This document shows positions 51,301-64,000 of a stretch of 64,000 nt of DNA, one piece after another. Under the pieces are notes generated by a model. It was given only the letters and a program-made list of their open reading frames with translations, made no database searches and had not been told where the DNA came from. Source of the stretch: Mrakia gelida. Its lineage: Eukaryota; Basidiomycota; Tremellomycetes; Cystofilobasidiales; Mrakiaceae. The DNA lies in contig BRON01000012.1 of NCBI GenBank assembly GCA_024345305.1, positions 1,336,212 to 1,400,211 on the forward strand. The letters run 5' to 3'. Numbering within the stretch: position 1 is the first letter of the stretch; every line of letters begins with the position of its first letter. Both the position numbers and the translations under genes were made by a program.

Positions 51301-54300
51301 CAAGCTCGGGATACCTCGGAACCAACAGGCTCTCCTCCTCTCCCTCTCTCTCTCCAACTCCAAGCTCTGGATCTCAAACCCCTCGGACCCTCTCAAACCC
51401 CAGCTCAACCTTCCTCACGCCCGAGCCTTCCTTCACTCCCTCGCCGCCGCGAAGCTCAACCTCCTCGTCGCCATCCACCTCTCCTCCCCTGGAGGTCGAG
51501 CTTCGGAACTCGTTACTCAGCAGCTCACCCGAACGGCCGACCACGGCTCCTCTCTCTTCATCACCTCCAACCGACTCGCCGTTCGTACAGAGGTCAACAA
51601 GACAGGAACGAAGACCATCCATCGCTTCGTGTCTCCGACCCTCGTGCCTCTCGTCATCCAGCTCTTTGGAGTCGTACAACCCTTCGCTCTCTACCTTCTC
51701 TCCCTCCTCCACTCTCTCAGCCCTCTGGACAACAACCTCGCCGTTCAGACCACCTTCAGGACGTTCCTTTGGACAGACGGTGTCGGGAAGCAGATCGTCG
51801 CCGCCGACCTCCGATCCCACCTCAAGCTCGCCTTCGTCTTGTCAGGCTCCTCGTCGGGAGTCGGGCTCCAAACGGTTCGACACGCCGAAGTCTTCATCAG
51901 TCGAATCATCCTTCCTCTCCTCGGATCAGACGCCAACGGACTCCTCGTCGCTCTGGAAACTCAGTCGAGCCAACGGGGCCACTCGCTCAGGACGGACGAG
52001 GCCGCTTACGGAAACACCGACTCCAGTGGTGGGATTCGGGACTTGGCTGCTTTTGGAGAAGCGACGAATGCAATGAGGGTCGTGAGCCTGTATCAACTCG
52101 CGTTGGGAGTGGACCCTGTGAGTCTTTGCCTCCCTGTTCGTTCTCGATCTTCACGCGACACCTCGTTCTGACCAACCCTCCTCTTCCCCCTCCTCCGCTA
52201 CGCTACGCAGGTTCTCAAGATCGACCGCTTGCCCGACAGGCTGGATCTGTTTCTTGGGCGTAGCTCTCATCCGTCGGTGAGTCCTTCCTCCCTTCTCTCT
52301 TCTGGCGACGTCCCTCGCCTGACTGACGCGTCTCTCTTCCTCTCCTTCTCTTCAGCTCTCCTCCAAGCGTCCCTCCTCCTCTTCTCTCTCTTCCTCCCAA
52401 CCTCTCTTCAAACGTCCCACACCAGCACCACCCTCCCCTCCTCCAGTCTCAGGGTACGACGACGAAGGATCCGAGCCGATGGAGCTAAGTCGCGACGACG
52501 CGGCAGGAGGAGGAGGAGATCCAGTCTCGGAGGAGGAGGAGAGGATTTCGATTCTTCCACCAAGTGCGGTGGAGGTATCCTCAAGAAGCCGGACTCCTCT
52601 CGATCTCCAAGCTCTCACGGACGGTGTCGACTTCGACGACGACATGGGCGACTTCGACGGATCCAGTCCCCCTCCTCCTCCTCCTCCGGCTCCTCGCATT
52701 CCTCCTAAACCCTCCCCTCTCCCCGTTCCTCCTCCCTACTCCCAAGCGGATGTCATCACCAGCCTTCTTCGGGAGTGGACCGGCAACCCATCAGCGGAGC
52801 TCTATGAGAACCAGCTCGAAGCTGCTGTCAAGATCATCCGCGGAGGAACCGATTACCTTCTCAGCAGCCCCGTTGGGTCGGGCAAGACCTTCCTCTCCCT
52901 CCTTCGAGCTCTCCTCGACCGCAGTCACCCTACTGGTCGTCTCGTCGTCTTCATCACACCCTTCCGCTCCGTCCTCGCTACGCTTCACGCTCGATGTCGG
53001 AACAGCAGTCTCGACGTCCACACCCACCCCTTCCCTCCCGAAACCCCTCTCGTCAGCCTCCGAGGTGTCCTCCTCATCTCGATCGAGCAGCTAGGCAACA
53101 AGCAGCTTCGAGAGGACCTCGCTTCCCTCGGCACCATAGGGAAGGTCCTCCAGTTCGTCGGGGATGAGGCTCACACCTGGGCGACTCAGTCGGATTGGAG
53201 GCCGTCGATGGGCTACGTCTCCCTCGCTCGACTCGCGCGAGCTCCCTTCCTCCTTCTCTCCGGCAGCTGGACTGAGGGAGCACGGAGACACGCCGGAACA
53301 CTCCTTCACTCAACCCTCACCGAGCTCAACTTCCCTCTTCGTCGTCCTGGAGTCACGTTCCACGTTGTGAAGCTGGACTCCAGCGACGACGTCTTCAAGA
53401 CGATGATGGATACTTTCGGGAACGGTCACCTCTCTGCTCCTAGAGCTCCAGTCATCATCTTTGGATTCACCAAGAAGGAGCTGGACGCGCTACGAGGAAG
53501 GCTGGTGGAGGAGGCGGAGAGGAAGGGTGTCGAGGTGAGGACGGAGGTCTACTACGCGGTGACGGGTGTGGAGGAGACAAGGAAGATGGATGGAACGAGC
53601 AAGGATTGGGAAGCCGGAAGGATCGACTACCTGTTCTGCACAACAGCGGGGATTCAAGCTCTGGACTGTCCGGTGAGTCAAACACAACCCCCCTTGCGTC
53701 GCGTCGGGTCAGGACGAGAACAACAACCGAACTCTCTTCCTTCCTCTTCCAGCAATGCAACCTCGTCATCTTCCTTCCTCACCCAAAAGGATGGACAGTT
53801 TCCGAGCGCGTTCAGGGAGGAGGTCGAGGTCGAGACTGGGAGACCGTCGTCTGGGACCTCCAACGGAAGAAGTCGACGCTTTTCGTCGACCACCCAAACG
53901 GGTTCGACCCTCGCTTCCGCTCTCCAAACAGCTGCATTGCCAAAGCACTGGAGGAGCAGCTCAACGATTTCTCGTCGGGAGACTGTGGACTCTGTACGGA
54001 ATGTCGTCGTCGTCGCGTTGCCCCTCCTCAATCTCCCTCCCTCCCCTCCCACCGAACCACCAACCTCCTCCCCTCAGCCATCTCTCCTCCCCTCATCAGC
54101 TCTCTCTTCCCTACCATCCCTCACTCCTCCGAGATCCCCGAAGCCTACCTCCGATCCCGTCAGCTCCATACTCAAGCAAACATCCTCCTCAACGAACTTG
54201 CCCATCTCCTCCGAACCCTCGACTCCCTCTGCTCGTCGTGCATCCTCCTTCACCCAACCACTCAACTCTCTCCCAACGCCACCTCACTCCACAAGTACGG

Positions 54301-54840
54301 ATGCCCCAGCAAGAAGAAAGAGTACGTTTTCGATTCTGTTTGCCTCTCCTTCTTGACCGCGACGCGTTCTGACGTCGCTTTCTTCTCTTCTCTCGCAGGT
54401 GCTCGTACTGTACTGGCTGCAACTGGAGGAGTCTCGAGACATGCGCAGTCCTTACCGCTCAACGCTCTACCTACTCCAACTGCTGTTTCGGATGCCTCTT
54501 CCCTATCTCGCTGCACGAGGAGGCGGCGGAGGGTGGGATGGGAGGAGGGTGTCCGTTCAGAGCTGCAAAGATGGTTGTTCCTCTTTGCATGCAGCTGTTC
54601 CGGGATCGGAGTTGGAGGAAGAGGGCTATCGAAGAGGGGAGGATTGGATCAGACTGGGGGTGGGTGTCTGACGGAGAAGGGATACTGCTGGGGACGAGGG
54701 AATATCACAAGTGGAAGATCACGAAGGAGAAGGACGTGGAGTTCTCGTTCTGGCTAGGTTTGCTCTCCCCTACACTTCCTTTCACCAACGCTGCTCTTCT
54801 CCTCCTCTGGTTCTACAAGACTGTCTCTCTCCCTACGTAG
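48317..54840 (+). CDS. Telomere-linked RecQ-type helicase (TLH-like), large multi-domain protein
   Basis: About 1,900 residues in several exons. The N-terminus (MSFSCSRAICHDLSPFSTLA...HVKDVH) has C2H2-like spacing; a second Cys/His cluster, CGSCGVVCKDGDSLRSHRHKKH, lies near 49,630-49,700. An acidic linker and a long helical region follow. The helicase domain is complete: SSPVGSGKTF (motif I, about 52,863), VVFITPFRSVLATL (Ia), FVGDEAHTW (DEAH motif II), LLLSGSWTEG (III), PVIIFGFTKKELD (IV), FCTTAGIQALDCPQCNLVIF (V) and VQGGGRGRD (VI, about 53,810). Two Cys-rich zinc-binding-like segments come after it (GDCGLCTEC, and CSYCTGCNWRSLETC to CCFGC). Subtelomeric RecQ-like genes of this kind (tlh1/2 in fission yeast, UTAS in Ustilago, TLH in Magnaporthe) are known beside fungal telomeres. 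The helicase part shows no break, so it may be active. The start and first two introns are uncertain. Confidence 0.75.
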
Positions 54841-54932: not shown

Positions 54933-56294
54933 AAGTTGGAGTCGTTGGTACATAGCTCTAGTATGTCCCGTAAAGGTGGCTTAGCTCTAGAGTGAAGATT
55001 TGCCGACGTCTCGAGGTTGAAAGGTATGAGCTCAAGCTCACCTCTGAGCTCCTCCTCCTTTCTCCTATGCGAGTCTGAGCCTCGTGGTAAGAAAATTTGC
55101 TCGCTCGAAGGAGGAACGTGTTCTCTATACCCGGCCTCCTGACTAATCTGTTTTCAGATTTCGAGTTACTGCTAGAATCGTTGCGCAGCGGCAGCGAACC
55201 TGTCGATGGAAGGGCCCTCTCGTTCGTTCAAGCTCAACCCCCATCTTCCCTTGCCCCTCGCTCTATACATGCGCTTCCCCCTTGCCCCTCCTTCTCCATT
55301 ATGACTCCTTGGTAGTATGGGACCAACCCCAGCTGGTTTTTATCTCTCGTCAAGGCTGGATGCAGGAGAAAATGAGCTCGATCAATGTGAGCTCCACCTC
55401 CACCTCCTCCCCTTCCTTCCCTCCATCTTCTCTCCTTCCGTTCTCCTCACCTCTTGCTCGGATCGCAATGGGACTTCGGGGGTATAGTAGGGCAGCTAGG
55501 GTGCCTAGGTGGAAGGTCTCAGATTTCAAGGAATGTATACGGTTGAGGCTCCTCGCTCATGCAGTCTTGTTGAGCTTGACTCTCCTTCCTCCCATGCATC
55601 GCATGCTGCTGAGACTCTCGTACTCACTCTATCTTCTCATTCTCTCTTTCCTACCACTCTAGTATACTTCCTCCTCCATCGCAAACCGCTCCCATTGCAC
55701 GCCTTGGCTCTCCTCTTCCTCCCTCGACCTCGCGATTTGATGCGCTGGCAGCTCGACCTTTCTCCTTCCTTTCCTTTGTCGAAGCTGTCGAGACGAGTTC
55801 TTGCTCCCTTTCCTCCCTTCTGGCGAATATATACGGCTTATATATAGTGGGCCCATAGGTGGAGAAGTAGAGGGATGCTGTAGGAGTGTTGGAAGGCCTC
55901 TCTCGGTCGTCGAGTCGGCTTGCGTTGAGCTCACCTCTCCTCCCCTTCCCTCCATCTCGACCTTGCCTCCCTTCGACGTTCGTCAGTTCTTCCGTGGCAC
56001 TGCTAGATGACCTACTTATGACCTCGTATAGCTTCGCTGACTCTCTGGGTATGTTCAGTGTCGCTCTAGCTGCTTTTGTTAAGGAGTTGGGAGTGCTCCC
56101 GAGTGGATGCGAGATGGTGGACGCGCTCCTTGACGGCTGCTAGAACATGAACGGGCGCACCTGTATACTCGTGAGTATATGCGATCAAAAGGGAATCAAA
56201 AGCCTGTTTGATCCATCTATGACCCGAGGTGATCTACATCAGATGGAAGGGATCAACTTAGGACTTCTCCTTCCAGTCGCGTCCTCTCCCCTCC
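54933..56294. repeat. Subtelomeric unit body without palindromic head (copy R1)
   Basis: Starts 93 bp after the helicase stop with GTTGGAGTCGTTGGTACATA, the same block that follows the palindromic modules elsewhere, and is near-identical to 56690-58020. It contains a conserved TTATATATAGTGGGCCC element near 55,838-55,855 and the first 150 bp of a 330-bp repeat monomer from 56142. It is cut off at 56294, where the next palindromic module begins. Short open frames inside (for example 55097-55315) are shared with the other copies but have no recognisable product. Confidence 0.85.
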
Positions 56295-56689
56295 CTAACC
56301 GTATGCGCCCCGTTCCTGCCTCCAGGAACGGTCGATTCCGTGGAGTCGACTACCCGGATCCGGGTAGTCCGACCGTTCCAGCAGCCCTTTTTGGACTACC
56401 CGGACTTTGCGTCGCTTCGTTCTCCTTCCTCCTTCCACCGAATCGCAAACGGGAAACACGACCAGCGAGATCTACCCATGAAGCACAATGTATCAGAAGC
56501 ACAGCTCTCTAGAACAAAATCTGCATCGTCGACAGCGATTCTCCCGAGAGGTACCTCAAAATGATGAAGAGGGCGAGCTCGAGCTGACTTCCGCGAGTTC
56601 TTTTCGGAGGAGCTCCATTCTCTCTCTTTTAGCTGCACTGTATATTCAAGGCCGAGTTCCTGCTATGCGAAGAGCTAGGGCCGTTGATT
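56295..56689. repeat. Subtelomeric palindromic module, copy 2 (diverged)
   Basis: Begins CTAACCGTATGCGC inside a truncated 330-bp monomer. The first palindrome has become a hairpin with 9-bp arms (56310-56318 with 56323-56331) and a CCTC loop. The next is a perfect 22-bp palindrome at 56348-56369 whose inner letters differ from copies 1 and 3 on both arms. The downstream conserved part follows, with about 10-15 percent differences from the other copies by eye. Confidence 0.85.
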
Positions 56690-57880
56690 AGTAGCTCTAG
56701 TATGTCCGGTATAAAGGGCTTAGCTCTAGAGTGAAGATTTGCCGACGTCTCGAGGTTGAAAGGTATGAGCTCAAGCTCACCTCCCAGCTCCTCCTCCTTT
56801 CTCCTATGCGAGTCTGAGCCTCGTGGTAAGAAAAGTTGCTCGCTCGAAGGAGGAACGTGTTCTTTATATCCGGCCTCCTGACTAATATGTTTTCAGATTT
56901 CGAGTTACTGCTAGAGTCGTTGCGCAGCGGCAGCGAACCTGTCGATGGAAGGGCCCTCTCGTTCGTTCAAGCTCAACCCCCATCTTCCCTTGCCCCTCGC
57001 TCTATACATGCGCTTCCCCCTTGCCCCTCCTTCTCCATTATGAGTCTATGGTAGTATAGGACCAACCCTATCCACTTTTTAGCTTTCGCCAGGGCTGGAT
57101 GCAGGAGAAAATGAGCTCGATCAATGTGAGCTCCACCTCCACCTCCTCCCCTTCCTTCCCTCCATCTTCTCTCCTTCCGTTCTCCTCACCTCTTGCTCGG
57201 ATCGCAATGGGACTTCGGGGGTATAGTAGGGCAGCTAGGGTGCCTAGGTGGAAGGTCTCAGATTTCGAGGGATGTATACGGTTGAGGCTCCTCGCTCATG
57301 CAGTCTTGTTGAGCTTGACTCTCCTTCCTCCCATGCATCCGATGCTGCTGAGACTCTCGTACTCACTCTATCTTCTCATTCTCTCTTTCCTACCACTCTA
57401 GTATACCTCCTCTTCCATCGCGAAACACTCCCACTACCCCTCTTGCTCCACCTCTCCCTCCCTCGACCTCCCCACTCCATGCGCTGGCAGCTCGACCTTT
57501 CTCCTTCCTTTCCTTTGTCGAAGCTGTCGAGACGAGTTCTTGCTCCCTTTCCTCCCTTCTGGCGAATTCATACGGCTTATATATAGTGGGCCCATAGGTG
57601 GAGAAGTAGAGGGATACTGTAGGAGTGTTGGAAGGCCTCTCTCGGTCGTCGAGTCGGCTTGCGTTGAGCTCACCTCTCCTCCCCTTCCCTCCATCTCGAC
57701 CTTGCCTCCCTTCGACGTTCGTCAGTTCTTCCGTGGCATTGCTATTTGACCTACCGATGATCTCGTATCCTTTTGAGGATTCTCTGGAGATGTTCGGTGT
57801 CGCTCTAGCTGCTTTCGTTGAGGAGTTGGGAGTGCTTGCAAGTGGGTGCGAGATGGTGGACGCGCTCTTCGACGGCTACT
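56690..57880. repeat. Subtelomeric unit body (copy R2)
   Basis: Near-identical to 54,951-56,141 (offset about 1,739 bp), including the ATGAGCTCAAGCTCACCTC block, the TCGTTCAAGCTCAACCCCCA block and the TTATATATAGTGGGCCC element near 57,577-57,594. It leads directly into the first tandem array. Confidence 0.85.
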
Positions 57881-59770
57881 AGAACATGAACGGGCGCACC
57901 TGTATACTCGTGAGTATATGCGATCAAAAGGGAATCAAAAGCCTGTTTGATCCATCTATGACCCGAGGTGATCTACATCAGATGGAAGCGATCGATCTAG
58001 GACTTCTCCTTCCAGTCGCGTCCTCCCTTCTTCCAGCCAAGTTCGACTTGCTCAAATCTTCTCTGAGCTGATCGAAACCAATTCGGATCATCTCTAGTAG
58101 TCCTGGCGGTTCTCCCAATATGTTCGGTGCCGCTCCAGCTGCTCTGGGTCCGAAGTTAAAAGTGTTCGCAAGCGGATACGAGAGGGTGGACACGCCGTTT
58201 GACGGCTACTAAGACATGATTGAGACCACCTCTATACTCGTAGGTATATGCGATCGAAAGGGAATTGAAATTCGGTTTCAACTATGAATCACTCGAGGTG
58301 ATCTATACGAGATGGAAGCGATCAATTCGGGACTTCTCCTTCCAGTCACGTCCTCCCTTCTTCCAGCCAAGTTCGACTTGCTCAAATCTTCTCTGAGCTG
58401 ATCGAAACCAATTCGGATCATCTCTAGTAGTCTTGACGGTTCTCCCAATTTATTCGGTGCCGCTCCAGATGCTCTGGGTCCGAAGTTAAAAGTGTTCGTA
58501 AGTAGGTGCGAGATGGTGGACGCGCTCTTCAACGGCTACTAGAACATGAACGGGCGCACCTGTATACTCGTGGGTATATGCGATCAAAAGGGAATTAAAA
58601 GCTGGTTCGATCTATGTATGACGCCAGGTGGTCTATACGAGATGGAAGCGATCGATTCGGGACTTCTCCTTCCAGTCACGTCCTCCCCACTGCCAGCCAA
58701 CTCCGACTCGCTCAAATCTTCTCTGAGCTGATCGAAACCAATTCGGATCATCTCTAGTAGTCTTGACGGTTCTCCCAATTTATTCGGTGCCGCTCCAGCT
58801 GCTCTGGGTCCGAAGTTAAAAGTGTTCGTAAGTGGGTGCGAGATGGTGGACGCGCTCTTCAACGGCTACTAGAACATGAACGGGCGCACCTATATACTCG
58901 CGGGCATACGCGATCAAAAGGGAACTCAAATTCGGTTTCATCTATGAATCACTCGAGATGATCTACACCAGATGGAACAGATCAACTTAGGACTTCTCAT
59001 TCCAGTCGCGTCTTCTCCCCTCCCAGCCAAATCCGACTCGCTCAAATCTTCTGTGAGCCGGTTGATACCAGTCCAAATCATCTCTAGTAGTCTTGACGGT
59101 TCTGTCAATATGTTCGGTGTCGCTCTAGCTGCTTTGTTGAGGAGTTGGGAGTGCTTGCGAATGGATGTAAGATGGTGGACGCGCTCTTCGACAGCTGCTA
59201 GAACATGAACGGGCGCACCCGTATACTCGTGGGTATATGTGATCGAAAGGGAATTTAAATTCGGTTTCAACTATGAATCACTCGAGGTGATCTATACGAG
59301 ATGGAAGAAGTTGTTTCGTGATCCCTTGTTCATGTCACGTCCTCTCCCCTCTTGTGCCAGTTCGACTCACTCAAATTTTCTCTCAGCTGGTCGAAACCAA
59401 CGCAGATCATCTCAAGTGCCTTTGAGGGTTCTCTCAATATGTTTGATGCCACTCCAGCTGCGTGGGGCCCGAACTGGGGGTGCTCGCGAGGAGATGCGAA
59501 AGGATGGACATGCTCTTCACCGGCTAGGAGAACACGAACGAAACCACCACTATAGTCGTGGGTATATGCGATCGAAAGGGAATTCAAATTCGGTTTCAAC
59601 TTTGAATCACTCGAGGTGATCTATACGAGATGAAAGGGATCGTCTCATGACTCTTTGTTCCAGTCACGTCCTTCCTTTTGATGAAGCACCCTGACCTGCT
59701 CAAGTTGCCACTGATCTCCTTTCCAGCAATGAATACAGTCTTGGAAAGTGAAAACAACTAGCTGAAACCG
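57881..59770. repeat. Tandem array of about 330-bp monomers, array 1
   Basis: The phrase AGAACATGAACGGGCGCACC or a close variant recurs at 57881, 58211, 58541, 58871, 59200 and 59529, giving a period of 329-330 bp. Central monomers are nearly identical (CTGCTCTGGGTCCGAAG block); the outer ones are degenerate. On the minus strand each monomer has an open frame of up to 84-92 codons. Confidence 0.9.
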
Positions 59771-60304
59771 TCTATGAGTCGTGGAGACAAGGGACAGCGC
59801 TGGGGTGTTGGGCTGGAGAAGGGAAGGAAAGGACGCGTTGGAAGAGTGTTGGGTACGACGGAAGGAGTGGGAGAGTAGTAGAGTAGTGAAAGTGAAGAAA
59901 AAGTAGAGAAACAGTGTTGGGTAGTAGGTGAGTTGGTTTGGAGGTGTTTGGTAAAGAAAAAAGGATGGGAAAGTGAAAAAGTTGAGGAGTTGGAGTGAGA
60001 AGGAGAAAAAAGTAGGGGAAGTAGTGAGGAGGTTGAGGAAGTAGAGAAGGTGAAAAGGAATTGAAAGTGAAGGTGAAGTGATGTAGTAAGTTTGAGAAAG
60101 TGTGGGAGGGTGTTGTAGTAGAAAAGGGGAGGTGTGGGAGGGAAAAGAAGTTGGAAAAAAGTGAAAAAGAGAGTTGGAGTGGGTTTGAGAGTGAAGTAGT
60201 AGTAGGGAAGTGGTTTTGGAGTAAAGAAAGTGAGAAGGGAGTGTATAAGAGTGTTTGTGGAAAGTTTGAAAGTGATTAGAAGTGTTGGAGTGAGGAAGAG
60301 AAGG
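59771..60304. repeat. Cytosine-free G/A/T tract, copy 1
   Basis: The + strand has no C from 59913 up to the module at 60353, 440 bp including the TTAGGG repeats. The preceding about 140 bp has only occasional C. The sequence is made of irregular GAGAA, GTGAAAG and GGAGTGG-like words, not a simple repeat. Confidence 0.95.
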
Positions 60305-60352
60305 TTAGGGTTAGGGTTAGGGTTAGGGTTAGGGTTAGGGTTAGGGTTAGGG
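60305..60352 (+). repeat. Interstitial telomeric array, eight TTAGGG copies
   Basis: Eight perfect TTAGGG repeats in the same orientation as the chromosome end, lying between the cytosine-free tract of unit 1 and the palindromic module of unit 2. The junction reads TTAGGGCTAACGG. Confidence 0.99.
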
Positions 60353-60729
60353 CTAACGGTATGCGCGCCGTTCCAACGCGTTGGAACGGTCGTTTCCGTC
60401 AAGTCGACTCGACGGATCCGTCAAGTCCGACCGTTCCAACAGGACTTGACGGACTTGACGGACTTTGCGTCGCTTCGTTCTCCCTCCCCTCCCCACCGAA
60501 TTGCGAGCGGGAAAAACGACCAGCTAGATCTACCTATGAAGTACAATGTATCAGATGCACAGCTGTATACGAGAAAAGCTGCATCGTCGACAGATATTCT
60601 CCCGAGAGGTACCTCAAAACGAAGGAGAGGGCGAGCTCGAGCTGACTTCCGCGAGTTCTTTTCGGAGGAGCTCCATCCTCTCTCTTTCAGCTTCTCTGTA
60701 TACTTGAGACCAAAACGGCAGATTGTAAA
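60353..60729. repeat. Subtelomeric palindromic module, copy 3
   Basis: Begins CTAACGGTATGCGC directly after TTAGGG repeats. It has a perfect 22-bp palindrome at 60368-60389; the second palindrome has one mismatch caused by a single T-to-C change relative to copy 1. The rest is almost identical to copy 1 at 46521. Confidence 0.9.
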
Positions 60730-61938
60730 CAGCTGGAGTCGTTGGTACATAGCTCTAGTATGTCCCGTAAAAAGGGCTTAGCTTTAGAGTGAAGATTTGC
60801 CGACGTCTCAAGGTTGAAAGGTATGAGCTCAAGCTCACCTCTGAGCTCCTTCCCCTCTCTCCTATGCGAGTGTGAGCTTCCTAGCAGGAAAATTTGCGCG
60901 CTCGAATAGGGAGCGTGTTCTTTATACCTACTCTCCTGACTAATATCTACTCAGATTTGGATTTACTGCTAGAGTCCCCTCTCAGCAGCTATGAACGTGT
61001 CCAAGGGAGGAGCTTCTTGCTTGCTCAAGCTCAACACCCACCTTCTCTCTCCTCTCGCTCTATACATGGGCCTCCCCCCGGTCCCTCCTTCTCCATTATG
61101 ACTCTTTGGTAGTATGGGACCAACCCCAGCTGGTTTTTATCTCTCGTCAAGGCTGGATGCAGGAGAAAATGAGCTCGATCGAGGTGAGCTCCACCTCCAC
61201 CTCCTTCCCTCCCTTCCCTCCATCTTCTCTCGTTTCGTTCTCCCCTCCTCTTGCTCGGATCGCGATGAGACGTGGAGGATATAGTAGGGCGGCTATGGAG
61301 CCTAGGCTGGTGGTCTCAGATTTTGAGGGATGTATACGGTTGAGGCTCCTCGCTCATGGAGTCTTGTTGAGCTTGACTCTCCTTCCTCCCATGCATCGCA
61401 TGCTGCTGAGACTCTCCCACTCACTCTATCTTCTCGTTCTCTCTTTCCTACCACTCTAGTATACTTCCTCCTCCATCGCAAACCGCTCCCATTGCACGCC
61501 TTGGCTCTCCTCTTCCTCCCTCGACCTCGCGATTTGATGCGCTGGCAGCTCGACCTTTCTCCTTCCTTTCCTTTGTCGAAGCTGTCGAGACGAGTTCTTG
61601 CTCCCTTTCCTCCCTTCTGGCGAATTCATACGGCTTATATATAGTGGGCCCATAGGTGGAGAAGTAGAGGGATACTGTAGGAGTGTTGGAAGGCCTCTCT
61701 CGGTCGTCGAGTCGGCTTGCGTTGAGCTCACCTCTCCTCCCCTTCCCTCCATCTCGACCTTGCCTCCCTTCGACGTTCGTCCGTTCTTCCGTGGCACTGC
61801 TAGATGACCTACCTATGATCTCGTATTGCTTCGCTGACTCTCTGGGTATGTTCAGTGTCGCTCTAGCTGCTTTCTTTGAGGAGTTGGGAGTGCTTGCGAG
61901 TGGGTGTGAGATGGTGGACGCGCTCTTTGACGGCTACT
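60730..61938. repeat. Subtelomeric unit body (copy R3)
   Basis: Aligns with R1 and R2 but with a more diverged 60,890-61,080 segment. The conserved TTATATATAGTGGGCCC element is at about 61,635-61,651. It runs into the second tandem array without a gap. Confidence 0.85.
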
Positions 61939-63500
61939 AGAACATGAACGGGCGCACCTATATACTCGCGGGCATACGCGATCAAAAGGGAATTTAAAGT
62001 CGGTTTCAACTATGAATCACTCGAGGTGATCTACATCAGATGGAAGCGATCGATCTAGGACTTCTCCTTACAGTCGCGTCCTCCCTTCTTCCAGCCAAGT
62101 TCGACTTGCTCAAATCTTCTCTGAGCTGATCGAAACCAATTCGGATCATCTCTAGTAGTCTTGACGGTTCTCCCAATTTATTCGGTGCCGCTCCAGCTGC
62201 TCTGGGTCCGAAGTTAAAAGTGTTCGTAAGTGGGTGCGAGATGGTGGACGCGCTCTTCAACGGCTACTAGAACATGAACGTGACCACCTGTATACTCGCG
62301 GGCATATGCGATCGAAAGGGAATTGAAAGTCGGTTTCAACTATGAATCACTCGAGGTGATCTATACGAGATGGAAGCGATCGATTCGGGACTTCTCCTTT
62401 CAGTCACGTCCTCCCTTCTTCCAGCCAAGTTCGACTTGCTCAAATCTTCTCTGAGCTGATCGAAACCAATTCGGATCATCTCTAGTAGTCTTGACGGTTC
62501 TCCCAATTTATTCGGTGCCGCTCCAGCTGCTCTGGGTCCGAAGTTAAAAGTGTTCGTAAGTGGGTGCGAGATGGTGGACGCGCTCTTCAACGGCTACTAG
62601 AACATGAACGGGCGCACCTATATACTCGTGGGTATATGCGATCAAAAGAGAATTTAAAGTCGGTTTCAACTATGAATCACTCGAGGTGATCTACATCAGA
62701 TGGAAGCGATCGATTCGGGACTTCTCCTTTCAGTCACGTCCTCCCTTCTTCCAGCCAAGTTCGACTTGCTCAAATCTTCTCTGAGCTGATCGAAACCAAT
62801 TCGGATCATCTCTAGTAGTCTTGACGGTTCTCCCAATTTATTCGGTGCCGCTCCAGCTGCTCTGGGTCCGAAGTTAAAAGTGTTCGTAAGTGGGTGCGAG
62901 ATGGTGGACGCGCTCTTCAACGGCTACTAGAACATGAACGGGCGCACCTATATACTCCCGGGCATACGCGATCAAAAGGGAATTCAAATTCGGTTTCAAC
63001 TATGAATCACTCGAGGTGATCTATACGAGGCGGAAGAAGTCGTTTCGTGATCCCTTGTTCATGTCGCATCCTCCCCCCTCTTGTGCCAGTTCGACTCACT
63101 CAAATTTTCTCTCAGCTGGTCGAAACCAACGCAGATCATCTCAGGTGCCTTTGAGGGTTCTCTCAATATGTTTGATGCCACTCCAGCTGCTTGGGGCCCG
63201 AACTGGGGGTGCTCGCGAAAAGATGCGAAAGGATGGACATGCTTTTCACCGGCTAGGAGAACACGAACGAAACCACCACTATAGTCGTGGGTATATGCGA
63301 TCGAAAGGGAATTCAAATTCGGTTTCAACTTTGAATCACTCGAGGTGATCTATACGAGATGAAAGGGATCGTCTCATGACTCTTTGTTCCAGTCACGTCC
63401 TTTTTTCTGACGAAGCACCCTGACCTGCTCAAGTCGCCACTGATCTCCTTTCCAGCAATGAATACAGTCTTGGAAAGTGAAAACGACTAGCTGAAACCGT
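61939..63500. repeat. Tandem array of about 330-bp monomers, array 2
   Basis: Monomer starts at 61939, 62269, 62599, 62929 and 63258 (period 329-330 bp). The monomers at 62269 and 62599 are almost identical to each other. The last monomer is the degenerate type, as in array 1, and grades into the cytosine-poor tract. Confidence 0.9.
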
Positions 63501-63910
63501 TTATGAGTCGTGGAGACAAGGGACAGCGCTGGGGTGTTGGGCTGGAGAAGGGAAGGAAAGGATGCGTTGGAAGAATGTTGGGTACGACGGAAGGAGTGGG
63601 AGAGTAGTAGAGTAGTGAAAGTGAAGAAAAAGTAGAGAAACAGTGTTGGGTAGTAGGTAAGTTGGTTTGGAGGTGTTTGGGTGAGAAAAAAAGAAGGGAA
63701 AGTGAAAAAGTTGGAGAGTTAGAGTGAGAAGGAGAAGAGAGTAGGGGAAGTAGTGAGGAGGGTTAGGAAGTAAAGAAAGTGAAAAGGAAGTAAAAGTGAA
63801 GGTGAAGTGTAGTAGTAAGTTTGAGAAAGTGTGGGAGGGTGTTGTAGTAGAAAAGGGGAGGTGTGGGAGGGAAAAGGAGTTGGAAAAAAGTGAAAAAGAG
63901 AGTTGGAGTG
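63501..63910. repeat. Cytosine-free G/A/T tract, copy 2
   Basis: The + strand has no C from 63642 to the end of the window (359 bp with the telomere). It aligns with copy 1 but lacks the last roughly 120 bp of it, switching to TTAGGG right after GAGTTGGAGTG. Confidence 0.95.
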
Positions 63911-64000
63911 TTAGGGTTAGGGTTAGGGTTAGGGTTAGGGTTAGGGTTAGGGTTAGGGTTAGGGTTAGGGTTAGGGTTAGGGTTAGGGTTAGGGTTAGGG
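63911..64000 (+). repeat. Chromosome-end telomere, 15 TTAGGG copies
   Basis: Fifteen perfect TTAGGG repeats fill the last 90 bases with no variant units. The strand orientation (G-rich strand running 5' to 3' rightward) is that of a right chromosome end. Confidence 0.99.

Follow-up and report, generated by a model that had tools for sequence, protein, structure and literature searches.

Why should several hundred bases at the end of a chromosome almost completely lack one of the four bases, and is this lack actively kept? The question is raised by the last part of the stretch of DNA analysed here (the window), the terminal 64,000 bases of contig C12 (C12:1336212-1400211) of the Mrakia gelida assembly (34.86 Mb in 25 contigs). 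The initial annotation reported two C-free runs there, and base counts give 440 bases at 59913-60352 (A148 C0 G188 T104) and 359 bases at 63642-64000 (A116 C0 G159 T84). These lengths are correct, but they include TTAGGG arrays of 50 and 91 bases (60303-60352 and 63910-64000), so the non-telomeric C-free parts comprise only 390 and 268 bases. A chance origin of the runs is excluded, because the window contains 28.9% C and its next longest C-free run has 77 bases; the longest G-free run has 107. C is scarce already ahead of the inner tract, with 4, 2, 1 and 0 occurrences per 50 bases in intervals from 59800 to 59950. A search for comparable runs elsewhere covered 246,053 bases (the window and loci L039 to L061, with L001 to L038 left out); every C-free or G-free run longer than 110 bases was either the tract with its array or a relative of it at loci L060 and L061.

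Two units in tandem, 56294-60352 and 60353-64000, make up the end of the window. They share 87% identity over 3,059 aligned bases; the inner one was delimited by this alignment and by its boundary motif. Both units, read on the plus strand, have the same order of parts: a start element with an inverted repeat, 330-base tandem repeats (57790-59672 in the inner and 61899-63371 in the outer unit, by Tandem Repeats Finder), a C-poor zone of ∼119 bases (59794-59912, with 7% C, and 63523-63641, placed by alignment of copies), the C-free tract and a TTAGGG array. From base counts and alignment of copies, the tract occupies 59913-60302 in the inner unit and 63642-63909 in the outer one, where it is cut ∼120 bases before the cut of the inner copy. 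The interstitial array (60303-60352, 8.3 copies) is joined to the inner tract and separates the two units, while the terminal array (63910-64000, 15.2 copies) is the end of contig C12. In Saccharomyces cerevisiae the Y′ elements are likewise tandem subtelomeric units with interstitial telomere repeats between them; the likeness is one of arrangement, and we refer to the units as Y′-like.

The outer unit starts with CTAACGGTATGCGC and its inverted repeat immediately 3′ of telomere repeats; the start at both 56294 and 60353 is CTAACSGTATGC, followed by the inverted repeat, the arms of which covary among copies (CCGTTCCAACGCGTTGGAACGG, CCGTTCCTGCCTCCAGGAACGG, CCGTTCCTGCTAGCAGGAACGG). Read on the minus strand, the unit start presumably resembles a Helitron 3′ end. 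Upstream of the units, the ORF at 52479-54356 has a DEAD-helicase match barely past the Pfam cut-off (26.4 versus 26 bits), and further copies of the block that holds it, with 96-98% identity, lie close to the start of at least C3, C5, C11 and C14. Subtelomeric helicase genes occur in other fungi and this ORF may, judged from its sequence, be one of them; a homologue search with it returned no match. Matches were found for three of the 25 ORFs in the Pfam scan. Elsewhere in the Pfam results we saw 14 matches to Fungal_trans domains, matches to STE3-type receptors at two sites on C16 and, on contig C8, the telomerase RNA-binding domain of a telomerase reverse transcriptase.

A similarity search with 59650-60302 as query gave 41 places in the assembly. 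At 23 of them the match starts with base 1 of the query and continues into TTAGGG repeats; 19 of these copies are at contig ends and four lie inside contigs next to interstitial arrays (on C12, on C22 and two on C1). The remaining 18 places are flank pieces, pieces of a second tract on C14 and C6 and diverged interior relatives. At each of the 19 contig ends found to bear a telomere, the tract directly adjoins the array on its inner side, with the C-free strand pointing outward, a count that rests on the arrays listed and leaves room for a short tract-less array on contig ends after C7. The tract is carried by all 15 contig ends with at least 12 perfect telomere repeats, as well as by four further ends with shorter arrays (C3 start, C3 end, C7 start and C10 end). 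Telomere repeats are missing from the assembly at 13 of the 20 contig starts fetched, and the set that was read did not extend to several of the contig ends. The telomere array at the start of C3 (locus L017) holds GGGCTA variants, i.e. C in the G-strand of the telomere repeat itself.

The exclusion of C turned out not to be absolute: 12 of the 23 copies have no C and 11 have one, making 11 C in about 7,960 bases, and six separate changes to C were seen. Over all copies the composition is A+G ∼79% and T+G ∼64%, with A ∼36%, T 21% and C 0.2%. Reading the alignment by eye we saw no pair of TTAGGG units inside the tract, and one single GGGTTAGG in copy C12e. The inner tract has no canonical G-quadruplex (four runs of at least three G, loops of 1-7), and Tandem Repeats Finder detected no tandem periodicity in the tract of the window. 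Repeated 8-mers number 45, above the range of mononucleotide shuffles (mean 16, maximum 37) and within that of dinucleotide shuffles (mean 31, maximum 54).

The point at which the tract gives way to telomere repeats differs between chromosome ends, a feature absent from the initial annotation. By reading the alignments we counted 14 distinct junctions among the 23 copies, 13 of them at contig ends; all junctions of the 23 copies fall within the C-free tract and none in the C-containing flank. Between 162 and 547 bases of tract are left at the junction, with the maximum reached by C14 and C6, which carry double tracts: at the start of C14 and at the end of C6 a cut tract is fused, at a common AGGAGTTGGA, to a second tract that resumes from an earlier position. 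Some junctions are common to two ends (C5/C3, C7/C21, C15/C16, C14/C6, C1/C20 and C12/C1), which suggests, from sequence comparison, that tracts have been copied between ends. We considered junction microhomology as proof of priming by telomerase and rejected it: at the 13 of 14 junctions where it could be measured, the overlap between tract and telomere repeat has a mean of 1.23 bases, against 0.98 in a random model (P = 0.24), and junctions with such an overlap neither prove nor exclude telomerase priming.

We propose, with about even confidence and partly by analogy with known systems, that the tract is a distal subtelomeric element in which telomerase re-adds telomeres, functioning like the SiRTAs of yeast and TelKO (see below); it looks like a spare strip for rebuilding lost telomeres. 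The tract would be the outermost, sacrificial part of a Y′-like unit now dispersed among the chromosome ends of the fungus. Upon loss of the telomere repeats and trimming of the 5′ strand, the 3′ G-strand of the tract would be exposed; having no C, it would be free of G-C hairpins, and in roughly four of five cases its 3′ end would fall on G or A. Telomerase could then add TTAGGG at whatever point the end happens to lie, and an eroded tract could also be repaired by copying another one. Recurrent loss, re-capping and copying between ends would keep C rare, because, as we propose, copies that gain C are removed or outcompeted.

The copies were compared to see whether the absence of C is kept. 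Identical copies were merged, leaving 19 of 23, and each copy was trimmed by 4 to 23 bases at its end; the control was the 600 bases before anchor 59650, 263-863 bases inward of the tract, with 18 copies aligned. The tract alignment has 396 sites, of which 75 are variable with 81 variants, and six variants are to C (three T>C, two A>C and one G>C). In the tract 6 of 81 variants from A, G or T create C versus 77 of 226 in the control (Fisher test, P = 9e-7); the control sits in the 330-base repeats, where the alignment register is possibly off in places, inflating the number of variants and not obviously the share to C. When linked variants were merged, 6 of 55 events were to C in the tract versus 53 of 122 in the control (P = 1.2e-5). 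With isolated variants only, the shortfall is modest, 6 of 44 versus 30 of 89 (P = 0.02). The two short zones that separate control from tract have 6 and 5 such variants, of which 2 and 0, respectively, create C; these numbers are too small to place the start of C avoidance. The C-poor zone itself varies little, with 8 variable sites in 119, versus 16 in 144 before it and 75 in 396 after it; from its sequence we regard it (59794-59912 and 63523-63641) as a candidate functional element, e.g. a start site or a protein-binding zone.

Diverged relatives of the tract are found inside contigs. Locus L060 (positions 82-571, on contig C25; L061 is on C23) consists of three tandem units of ∼158 bases followed by four TTAGGG repeats, with 3 C in a total of 493 bases. 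BLAST aligns it to the tract at 74% identity across 256 columns, and other segments agree at 67-84%; L060 and L061 are, by their sequence, apparently an older lineage of the tract, the one best matched by the end of C11 and by the second tract of C14 and C6. Between L060 and C11e there are 45 mismatches in 263 ungapped columns, two of them with C; none of the 16 changed T became C and there is no A>C, against ∼8.7 T>C expected in a rough estimate that takes A>G as its basis and uses hand-entered site counts. When L060 is compared with three other copies, 0 of 32, 0 of 23 and 1 of 26 mismatches involve C, and between the interior relatives and C12int the counts are 0 of 32, 2 of 44 and 1 of 13. 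With so few C among the mismatches of a diverged relative, the exclusion of C persists across considerable divergence. The claim that the lack of C is not just a legacy of recent duplication is therefore upheld: new C is under-represented among variants and rare in the interior relative, and hence the exclusion is older than a recent duplication.

The same data bear on the strongest rival to re-addition, that composition was passively inherited and has no function. A C-free low-complexity seed caught beside a telomere long ago could have been spread by recombination, with later change coming mostly from slippage and from the exchange of patches among C-free copies, which are unable to introduce C. 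Much of the variation in the tract indeed occurs as blocks common to several copies, C11e and the second tract of C14 and C6 resemble the interior L060 lineage, six C have arisen among the 44 isolated changes, and repeated 8-mers exceed mononucleotide shuffles, though not dinucleotide shuffles. We consider this explanation rather unlikely: the deficit of new C survives the collapse of linked variants, and the lack of T>C and A>C between L060 and C11e also speaks against it. Re-addition, for its part, has to accommodate the moderate depletion of C among isolated changes and the fact that we found no contrast between ends and interior: per change, C is avoided to about the same degree in the interior relatives and in the terminal copies.

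A strand-specific mutation process had also been suggested. If the G-strand of the tract is often single-stranded, its pyrimidines, chiefly C, could be damaged and mutated away; in yeast with uncapped telomeres, UV-induced mutations in single-stranded DNA hit the pyrimidines of the unresected strand (PMC2577886). The tract is poor in pyrimidines (T 21%, C 0.2%), C falls over ∼120 bases ahead of it, and in the 150 bases before the C-poor zone we counted, by majority, C>T at 6 of 39 and G>A at 0 of 30 sites. Further inward, however, mutation is strand-symmetric, both in the control flank at 263-863 bases (C>T 42/141, G>A 54/156, T>C 44/161 and A>G 32/143) and in the 900 bases past it (C>T 78/243, G>A 71/235, T>C 75/262 and A>G 70/214). 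This symmetry argues against mutation of one strand over the whole chromosome end, and the idea of a process reaching far inward was given up; a process restricted to the outermost few hundred bases is conceivable. Asymmetric mutation of the flank was thus rejected as the cause, the C>T hint in the 150-base zone being too small for a claim. Moreover, C>T alone should raise T, which makes up 21% of the tract, 15% of the C-poor zone and 26% further inward, and removal of C leaves the rarity of T>C and A>C unexplained. All in all, damage of one strand seems an unlikely origin.

The G-strand is practically unable to fold. The folding energy of the tract is 0 as DNA (mean of −0.41 for its dinucleotide shuffles) and −6.0 as RNA, whereas four other 389-base segments, taken on either strand, reach −94 to −134. 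The proposal that C is avoided because it would permit G-C hairpins agrees with these values; yet the strand is unfoldable because it lacks C, dinucleotide shuffles also hardly fold, and the property follows from composition. One could speculate from the sequence that the tract forms the main part of a telomere-repeat RNA in which C is avoided to keep it unfolded or to allow R-loops with the C-strand. A GC skew of +1, the negligible RNA folding and the C-poor zone immediately upstream, which varies little and might include a start site, are compatible with such an RNA; in the Rfam search no family reached the gathering score within the window, and we regard this explanation as very unlikely.

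The start of contig C1 deserves separate mention. It has 100% identity with 56293-64000 of the window, the end of C12, over 7.7 kb, reflecting either a very recent end-to-end copying or one clone placed twice. Past its telomere array, C1 runs into F-plasmid-like vector sequence (L039, 1-1021), with pieces 1-384 and 393-939 matching Escherichia coli plasmids at 98.7% and 99.8%; this looks like cloning-vector contamination from a telomere clone. Although both observations are of a kind expected from an assembly or cloning artefact, such an origin of the tract is hardly credible, as 19 distinct copies on many contigs agree while differing in truncations and variants.

How does the tract compare with elements known from other telomeres? 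The R element of Kluyveromyces lactis is distal in the subtelomere, common to ends, over 1 kb long and strongly biased to purines on one strand. The tract, compared by description, has such a purine bias (A+G ∼79%); the R element is longer and is characterized by purine bias rather than by absence of C. TelKO of Naumovozyma castellii, described at 220 and 445 bases, lies immediately inside the telomere with its G-strand bias outward, is 75-82% T+G, holds pieces of telomere repeat and is missing from 7 of 18 wild-type ends (PMC12408736). As far as that description goes, the tract shares with TelKO its position immediately inside the telomere (at 19 of 19 ends found), a length of a few hundred bases, the outward G-strand bias and length variants of differing extent that have spread between ends; it differs in being purine-rich and nearly C-free, with T+G of only ∼64%, A of ∼36% and no strongly T+G-rich strand with telomere-repeat pieces, and in its presence at all 19 telomeric ends found (PMC12408736). 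The SiRTAs of S. cerevisiae, where telomeres are added after loss, are reported at 31 of 32 subtelomeres; they are TG-rich, bind Cdc13 and receive a score for how closely they resemble the telomere repeat (PMC10055226). Like them, the tract has its characteristic sequence on the strand running toward the telomere; unlike them, it is rich in G+A and does not resemble TTAGGG arrays (PMC10055226). Telomere addition may occur inside it, where 14 distinct natural junctions lie, with an overlap that is not above chance (P = 0.24). In Ustilago maydis, another fungus with TTAGGG repeats, the UTASa and UTASb segments before the telomere are also of variable length (612-658 and 734-805 bases in sequenced clones); the likeness is again by description, and the main text of that paper does not use the words purine or strand bias (PMC6167521). 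In a literature search among open-licence papers we found no title or abstract describing such a tract.

Returning to re-addition, the observations that speak for it are the position of the tract at 19 of 19 ends, its orientation, the variable cut points with 14 junctions inside it, the junctions in common, the unfoldable strand, the shortage of new C and the telomerase domain encoded in the genome. On the other side stand the chance-level overlap at junctions, the only moderate depletion of C among isolated changes and the search for a contrast between ends and interior, which found none; together they leave us about evenly divided. Telomerase would be the maker of the junctions. That absence of C is itself the selected trait, giving an unfoldable strand of several hundred bases with a usable 3′ end at almost any base, is a more tentative suggestion; we attach similarly guarded belief to a composition code for telomere rescue, independent of any fixed motif or telomere-like sequence. 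What is new here is the near-total absence of one base, retained over divergence, at all telomeric ends found.

If selection keeps the tract C-free, what a chromosome end requires behind its telomere may be base composition rather than a motif, in the form of a strand that remains open and is extendable from nearly any point. With many natural junctions within one genome the idea is testable, and it might also account for G-strand-biased sequence found in the same place in other fungi.
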